Shown here: in pieces, positions 24,928 through 61,923 of the stretch
Layout of the letters: each line of letters opens with the position of its first letter
How positions within the stretch are numbered: the stretch's first letter is position 1
Assembly: GCA_030148985.1 (NCBI GenBank)
Contig: JASBSJ010000003.1
Coordinates: 1 to 64,000 of the forward strand
DNA length: 64,000 nt
From: Sphingopyxis sp.
GTDB lineage: Bacteria; Pseudomonadota; Alphaproteobacteria; Sphingomonadales; Sphingomonadaceae
Direction of reading: 5' to 3'
Made by a program: the position numbers and the translations under genes
Notes under the pieces: model-generated
Database searches by the model: none
Told to the model about the DNA's origin: nothing
What the model saw: only the letters and a program-made list of their open reading frames with translations

Positions 24928-24965
24928 GGCGCGGCGTTAGCAGGAGCATAGGCGCGGCTCAACAC

Positions 24966-25055
24966 CGTCGCCCCCGCGCAGGTGGGGGCCGCAATCGGCC
25001 TTTTCCTGCGTCGCTGCGTAAACCGCCGACGGCCCCCGCCTGCGCGGGGGCGACG
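24966..25055. repeat. REP-like doublet (family A, copy 2)
   Basis: CGTCGCCCCCGCGCAGGTGGGGGCC...CGGCCTT...GCGTAA...GGCCCCCGCCTGCGCGGGGGCGACG; same layout as 2451-2528 and 61834-61923. Confidence 0.8.
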
Positions 25056-37779: not shown

Positions 37780-38367
37780 ATGTCGACGGGGATCATGCTG
37801 AGCCTTCCCAACTTATTGACGCTGTCGCGAATCCTGGCGGTTCCCATCCTGCTGTTCTTGTTGTGGCCGGGGGTGAGCGAAGGGTCGCACCAGCCCAAAC
37901 CGATCGATTATGCGCTGGCCTTCGGCCTTTACTGCCTGATGGGCATTACCGATTATTTTGACGGCTATGTGGCACGCGCGCGCGGCACCGTGTCGCGGTT
38001 GGGCATCTTCCTCGACCCGATTGCCGACAAGATCATGATCGCGGCGGTGATCCTGCTGCTCGTCTTCACCCGCGACATCGACGGATGGCACGTCATTGCG
38101 GCGCTGGTCATCCTGCTGCGCGAAATCATCGTGTCGGGGCTGCGCGAATTCCTCGCGACCTTGCAGGTGTCGATGCCAGTGACGCAGCTTGCCAAGTGGA
38201 AGACGGCGTTTCAGCTCGTCGCCTTTGGCGCGCTCATCTTTGCGGGCGCCTTGCCCGCGATGGCGTGGATCAAGACCGTCGGGCTGGTTTCGCTGTGGGG
38301 CGCGGCGGTGCTGACGCTGGTGACCGGCTGGGACTATCTGCGCGTCGGCCTGAAGCATATGGACTGA
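37780..38367 (+). CDS. pgsA: CDP-diacylglycerol--glycerol-3-phosphate 3-phosphatidyltransferase
   Basis: LPNLLTLSRILAVPILLFLLWPG, DYFDGYVARARGTVSRLGIFLDPIADKIMIAA. Confidence 0.95.
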   Translation: MSTGIMLSLPNLLTLSRILAVPILLFLLWPGVSEGSHQPKPIDYALAFGLYCLMGITDYFDGYVARARGTVSRLGIFLDPIADKIMIAAVILLLVFTRDIDGWHVIAALVILLREIIVSGLREFLATLQVSMPVTQLAKWKTAFQLVAFGALIFAGALPAMAWIKTVGLVSLWGAAVLTLVTGWDYLRVGLKHMD

Positions 38368-38621
38368 TGACGCTCGACCTGTCCTATTTCGCCTGGGTGC
38401 GCGAGCGCATGGGGGTGGCGGGTGAGACGGTCGAGCTGCCGCCCGCGGTGACCAATATTGCTATGCTGCTTGGCTGGCTGGCGGCGCGCGACGAACGCGG
38501 CGCGGCGGCCTTTGCCGAACCGCACCGCATCCGCGCCACGATCGACGGGGTGATGATGGGGCCCGATGCCCCGCTGGCGCGCGCGCGACGTCGCGCTGTT
38601 TCCGCCCGTGACAGGCGGATG
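38367..38621 (+). pseudogene. moaD: moaD (molybdopterin synthase small subunit) with apparent +1 frameshift near 38580
   Basis: Frame 1 gives MTLDLSYFAWVRERMGVAGETVELP...IDGVMMGPDAPLA; shifting one base at the GC run gives ARDVALFPPVTGG* with stop overlapping the moaE ATG. Confidence 0.72.
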
Positions 38622-39071
38622 ATCCGCGTTTTCGTCCAGCCGACGCCGATCGAGATCGGCACCGAGTTCGATCTGCACGATGCCGGGGGGCATGGCGCGA
38701 GCGCGAGCTTCATCGGGCGCGTGCGCGGCGACGATGACCTGACCGAGCTGTTCCTGGAGCATCATCCGGTGATGACCGAGGCGGGCCTCGCGGGCCTGGC
38801 GCACGCGGCGGTCGATCGCTGGAAGCTGGGGGCGCTGACCCTGATCCACCGCGTCGGCGCGATAGCGCCGGGCGAGACGATCGTGCTCGTCCTCGCAAGC
38901 AGCCGCCACCGCGCCGAGGCGCTGGCGGCGTGCGAATATCTGATCGACCGGCTGAAGACCGACGTGATGCTGTGGAAACGCGAGACGTTCGCCAACGGCC
39001 GCGTCGCGTGGGTCGAGGCGCGCGAGGGCGACCGGGATCGCGCGGCGCGGTGGGATCAGGGCGTGGATTGA
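38619..39071 (+). CDS. moaE: Molybdopterin synthase catalytic subunit
   Basis: MIRVFVQPTPIEIGTEFDLHDAGGHGASASFIGRVR...LEHHPVMTEAGL, LIHRVGAIAPGETIVLVLASSRHRAEALAACEYLIDRLKTDVMLWKRE. Confidence 0.93.
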   Translation: MIRVFVQPTPIEIGTEFDLHDAGGHGASASFIGRVRGDDDLTELFLEHHPVMTEAGLAGLAHAAVDRWKLGALTLIHRVGAIAPGETIVLVLASSRHRAEALAACEYLIDRLKTDVMLWKRETFANGRVAWVEAREGDRDRAARWDQGVD

Positions 39072-39380: not shown

Positions 39381-39387
39381 GTTAAAT

Positions 39388-39517
39388 CCTCCCTGTCGCG
39401 TAGCGATGGGGAGGGGGACCGCGCCCGAAGGGCGTGGTGGAGGGGCGGCGACGTCGCGTTATTGCCCCCCCGTCAGCGCTTCGCGCTGCCACCTCCCCAT
39501 GGCTTCGCCACAGAGAG
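39388..39517. repeat. GC-rich intergenic repeat (family C, copy 1)
   Basis: Shares CCGTCAGCGCTTCGCGCTGCCACCTCCCC and AATCCTCCC...GGGGAGGGGGACCGC blocks with 45640-45852. Confidence 0.7.
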
Positions 39518-39558
39518 GATCAACGTCCACTTCTGATCGAATGCCGCTTTCCGAATAT

Positions 39559-39629
39559 TTCGCGCAGAGGCGCAGAGATCGACTAGATGAAGCGTACTCC
39601 CCTCTGCGATCTCTGCGCCTCTGCGCGAA
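39559..39629. repeat. Perfect 23-bp inverted repeat
   Basis: TTCGCGCAGAGGCGCAGAGATCG (39559-39581) and its exact reverse complement CGATCTCTGCGCCTCTGCGCGAA (39607-39629). Confidence 0.8.
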
Positions 39630-61833: not shown

Positions 61834-61923
61834 CGTCGCCCCCGCGAAGGCGGGGGCCGCTGGCGGCCTTGCCCAGCGGCGTTGCGTAAGCCTCCAGTGG
61901 CCCCCGCCTTCGCGGGGGCGACG
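61834..61923. repeat. REP-like doublet (family A, copy 3)
   Basis: CGTCGCCCCCGCGAAGGCGGGGGCC...CGGCCTT...GCGTAA...GGCCCCCGCCTTCGCGGGGGCGACG-type arrangement. Confidence 0.8.

Follow-up and report, generated by a model that had tools for sequence, protein, structure and literature searches.

The locus described here raises the question of what to make of a single open reading frame that joins moaD to moaE in a Sphingopyxis genome: a fused gene, a gene read through recoding, or a damaged or misread copy of an ordinary pair. Adenylation of MoaD and the transfer of sulfur both depend on a C-terminal glycine that is free (PMC3227635). The window, by which we mean the whole 64,000-nt stretch of DNA that was analysed, lies on contig C80 of a draft genome (86 contigs, 2.94 Mb, 73% complete) that appears to be metagenome-assembled or otherwise unfinished.

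Organization of the moaD-moaE locus

The features of the locus are as follows.

37780-38367, + strand: pgsA-like gene for a CDP-diacylglycerol--glycerol-3-phosphate 3-phosphatidyltransferase (ORF list; TIGR00560, 138 bits, above the cut-off; PF01066)
38367-38576, + strand: 5' part of moaD, in frame, codons 1-70 (homology to genus relatives)
38577-38587, + strand: alternating run GCGCGCGCGCG, the frameshift site (DNA alignment to the relatives G066, G060 and G002)
38587-38622, + strand: 3' tail of moaD, DVALFPPVTGG and TGA, intact but out of frame (comparison with G066)
38619-39071, + strand: moaE, intact (PF02391, 98.2 bits; PRK10678, 119 bits; 93% identity to G066)

The pgsA-like gene adjoins moaD on its 5' side, and its stop codon overlaps the moaD ATG. 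According to the ORF list and the translation, positions 38367-39071 (+ strand) form one open frame in the sequence as given, consisting of MoaD (residues 1 to ~72), RARRRAVSARDRR and then MoaE, whose ATG lies within the fused frame at 38619. An earlier sequence-only reading had described this joined frame, and also a normal MoaD C-terminus in another frame with a stop overlapping the moaE start. Both descriptions are correct: the canonical tail DVALFPPVTGG is encoded out of frame, and its TGA (38620-38622) overlaps the moaE ATG as ATGA. The fused frame lacks VTGG and reads RARRRAVSARDRRM at the junction, confirming the further claim that the frameshift removes the Gly-Gly end of MoaD.

The MoaE domain scores far above the curated PF02391 cut-off of 23.4 bits but falls below the cut-off of the PRK10678 model, and its identity to G066 extends across query residues 65-232 of the fused protein. 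Its named relatives are Sphingopyxis. The 5' part of moaD is ∼57-87% identical to genus relatives over roughly codons 1-77; compared with G066, codons 1-70 carry 14 silent nucleotide differences and 8 replaced codons. The fused frame matches the MoaD model TIGR01682 weakly (26.8 bits, residues 5-71; cut-off 66.15), whereas the intact MoaD of G002 passes it with 67.4 bits. Since both moaD and moaE are strong homologues, the fused frame is not a chance open frame.

Two intergenic inverted repeats are located 3' of moaE, one at 39386-39520 with 32-nt arms (84% complementary) and one at 39559-39629 with 23-nt arms (100% complementary). Stretches resembling the former are found at other places in G066. 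Elsewhere in the window, two ∼90-nt stretches (24964-25055 and 61834-61923) each match one common set of G066 sites at 86-95% identity, and they look like copies of a dispersed intergenic repeat.

Size and age of the frameshift

The closest relative, G066 (93% identical in the MoaE region), was used as the reference. It carries an intact 85-codon moaD reading MRLDLSYFAWVRERMG...GPDAPLARARDVALFPPVTGG*, and DNA alignment places the run GCGCGCGCGCG of the window, G(CG)5, opposite the run GCGCGCGCGCGCG, G(CG)6. The distance from the moaD start to the moaE start is 252 nt in the window versus 254 nt in relatives with an 85-codon moaD. Judged from this comparison, the lesion at 38577-38587 consists of a single CG dinucleotide (2 nt) that is missing relative to G066. 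The sequence-only reading was thus right to place a frameshift in the GC dinucleotide run but not in its size, which it took to be 1 nt. Neither the spacing of the two gene starts nor the G066 alignment allows a model with one inserted base; leaving out one base brings back the frame in an arithmetical sense only, and the resulting MoaD would be one residue short.

The 36-nt tail after the run differs from G066 at one position, which is silent in the canonical frame. Because the tail still encodes DVALFPPVTGG with this one silent change, the lesion appears to be recent or artefactual, with no sign of age.

moaD and moaE in other Sphingopyxis genomes

In all the relatives inspected, moaD is separate from moaE and ends in (V/I/L)ALFPPVTGG or similar, and its usual length is 83-85 codons; none has a fused moaD-moaE gene. 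A search of 80 genus genomes likewise gave no continuous match to the fused protein in any other genome. A fused frame shared by close relatives had been named as the observation that would favour a true fusion, and its absence from these genomes excludes a conserved fusion. Of 69 distinct moaD tails, 66 have a TGA that overlaps the start of moaE (ATGA or GTGA). For 58 of the 69 relatives, the shifted frame stays open over the 48 nt before moaE and continues into it. With moaD overlapping moaE and the shifted frame mostly open, a 2-base loss in moaD therefore joins the two genes automatically. The apparent fusion is accordingly a by-product of gene overlap and does not speak for selection. At this position, most relatives have a shorter alternating run than the window.

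Neither moaD nor moaE was detected in five genus genomes (G015, G017, G022, G103 and G096), and the same five also yielded neither moaC nor a match to PF00174. The distribution suggests that losses of moaC, PF00174, moaD and moaE usually go together and that loss of moaD by itself is out of pattern. Such a loss, in a genome that keeps the rest, is in keeping with an error or with a mutation of very recent date.

A molybdoenzyme-like protein with a MoCoBD_1 domain (PF02738, ∼770 aa) is present in these five genomes (in G015 at L206:187-2484). No moaC was found in them, nor moaA or moeA where searched; the protein either obtains the cofactor from another source or works without it.

Moco genes in the draft genome

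In the genome under study, moaA, moaC and moeA are open, as is an Oxidored_molyb (PF00174) molybdoenzyme gene. The search for a second moaD, which the sequence-only reading had proposed, found none in this 73%-complete draft, of which about a quarter may be missing. PF02597 gave only a 13-bit match, and a MoaD profile recovered only the two pieces of the moaD at 38367, plus matches at E 0.37 and 0.83. With the CG unit gone, the sole moaD found ends up without its C-terminal Gly-Gly and continues into moaE.

Frameshifts elsewhere in the genome

About 119 kb could be aligned between this genome and G066. The sole other clear case in this genome is a 1-nt deletion relative to G066 at L124:7477, which breaks another coding frame; a candidate at L126:1472 was set aside, as it looked to lie upstream of a start codon. 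G066, a single-contig and supposedly complete assembly, has itself lost one CG unit in lptF/lptG, which frameshifts the gene. The same gene is intact in the genome under study at L122:12105-12116, where the G066 run is one unit shorter. The LptF/LptG family is normally essential, and for this reason the break in G066 is probably an assembly error; if so, such CG-unit errors reach deposited genomes. Of the alternating CG runs of at least 8 nt that align between the two genomes, 148 of 153 are without an indel, and wherever the window aligns to relatives, no other clear coding frameshift was seen. CG runs are thus mostly stable, and the assembly is not generally error-rich. A literature search on dinucleotide indel errors found no matching paper.

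Origin and consequences of the frameshift

The locus is almost certainly an ordinary overlapping Sphingopyxis moaD-moaE pair whose moaD has had a (CG)6 run shortened by one CG unit. It represents neither a novel type of gene nor a novel fusion, and as evidence of recoding it is poor. The unit would have been lost either through a consensus or assembly error or through a genuine, very recent mutation by replication slippage, the two main options of the sequence-only reading, which both stand. By judgement and not by computation, we lean on balance towards an error, in which case moaD is intact in the organism itself and a CG unit is missing only from the deposited sequence. The genome is a draft, the tail is intact and the pathway genes are otherwise open; the normally essential LptF/LptG gene of G066 shows a similar CG-unit loss, and the deletion at L124:7477 is another coding lesion in the ∼119 kb compared. 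Against it, the window shows few further frameshifts where it can be aligned, and most CG runs agree with G066. A genuine recent slippage mutation that inactivated moaD, leaving a Moco-minus strain or one whose cofactor is made elsewhere, is by the same uncomputed judgement quite possible. Dinucleotide runs are prone to slippage, and the lesion lies in such a run; moreover, some other genus members lack moaD and moaE, and for them the pathway is therefore dispensable. The open state of the remaining pathway and of the molybdoenzyme gene and the lack of decay in the tail are harder to reconcile with a mutation.

Recoding, in which the ribosome or RNA polymerase would slip on the CG run and so restore MoaD, perhaps as a phase-variable switch, had also been suggested and is very unlikely. 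The lesion coincides with a slippage-prone repeat, and the tail has been kept, but relatives encode moaD in a plain frame, most of them lack so long a run here, and CG alternation is not known as a slippery motif. That the run acts in this lineage as a real on/off contingency locus, switching MoaD and with it Moco synthesis, is even less credible. Equally improbable is a functional MoaD-MoaE fusion of the mycobacterial MoaX or Deinococcus DR2607 kind. The frame is continuous, as such a fusion would require, but no Gly-Gly is left in it, whereas MoaX needs both glycines for catalysis and Gly81 for cleavage (PMC4326299); none of the relatives carries a fused gene, and most have an open shifted frame in any case. 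Short of a biochemical surprise, the comparison with relatives already refutes such a fusion.

The frame as given should yield no active MoaD because it lacks the C-terminal Gly-Gly motif. Were the loss of the CG unit real, no thiocarboxylated MoaD would be formed, Moco synthesis would halt at cPMP and MoaE would have extra, useless residues at its N-terminus, although MoaE might work if made from its own ATG; the case would be a simple recent loss of Moco synthesis. The main value of the result lies in clean annotation: MoaX-like fusion would be the wrong label for the fused ORF. The similar loss in lptF/lptG of the single-contig G066 suggests checking the CG runs of these genomes before any gene is declared broken or fused.

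Comparison with known systems

The closest match is the separate moaD and moaE of Sphingopyxis (TIGR01682/PF02597 and PF02391), with the same genes, the same order and an intact MoaE. Most of MoaD and the VTGG tail are present in the window as in these genes, but the window copy is one CG unit short, so that its Gly-Gly end is out of frame. In MoaX of Mycobacterium tuberculosis, a natural fusion, MoaD and MoaE share one reading frame, as in the window; MoaX keeps Gly81-Gly82 and is cut after Gly82 (PMC4326299), whereas the window frame has no Gly-Gly at the MoaD/MoaE junction. DR2607, the MoaD-MoaE fusion of Deinococcus radiodurans, likewise holds both domains in one polypeptide and is cleaved by DRJAMM to leave a C-terminal Gly (PMC8832034); unlike DR2607, the window frame encodes no Gly-Gly end.
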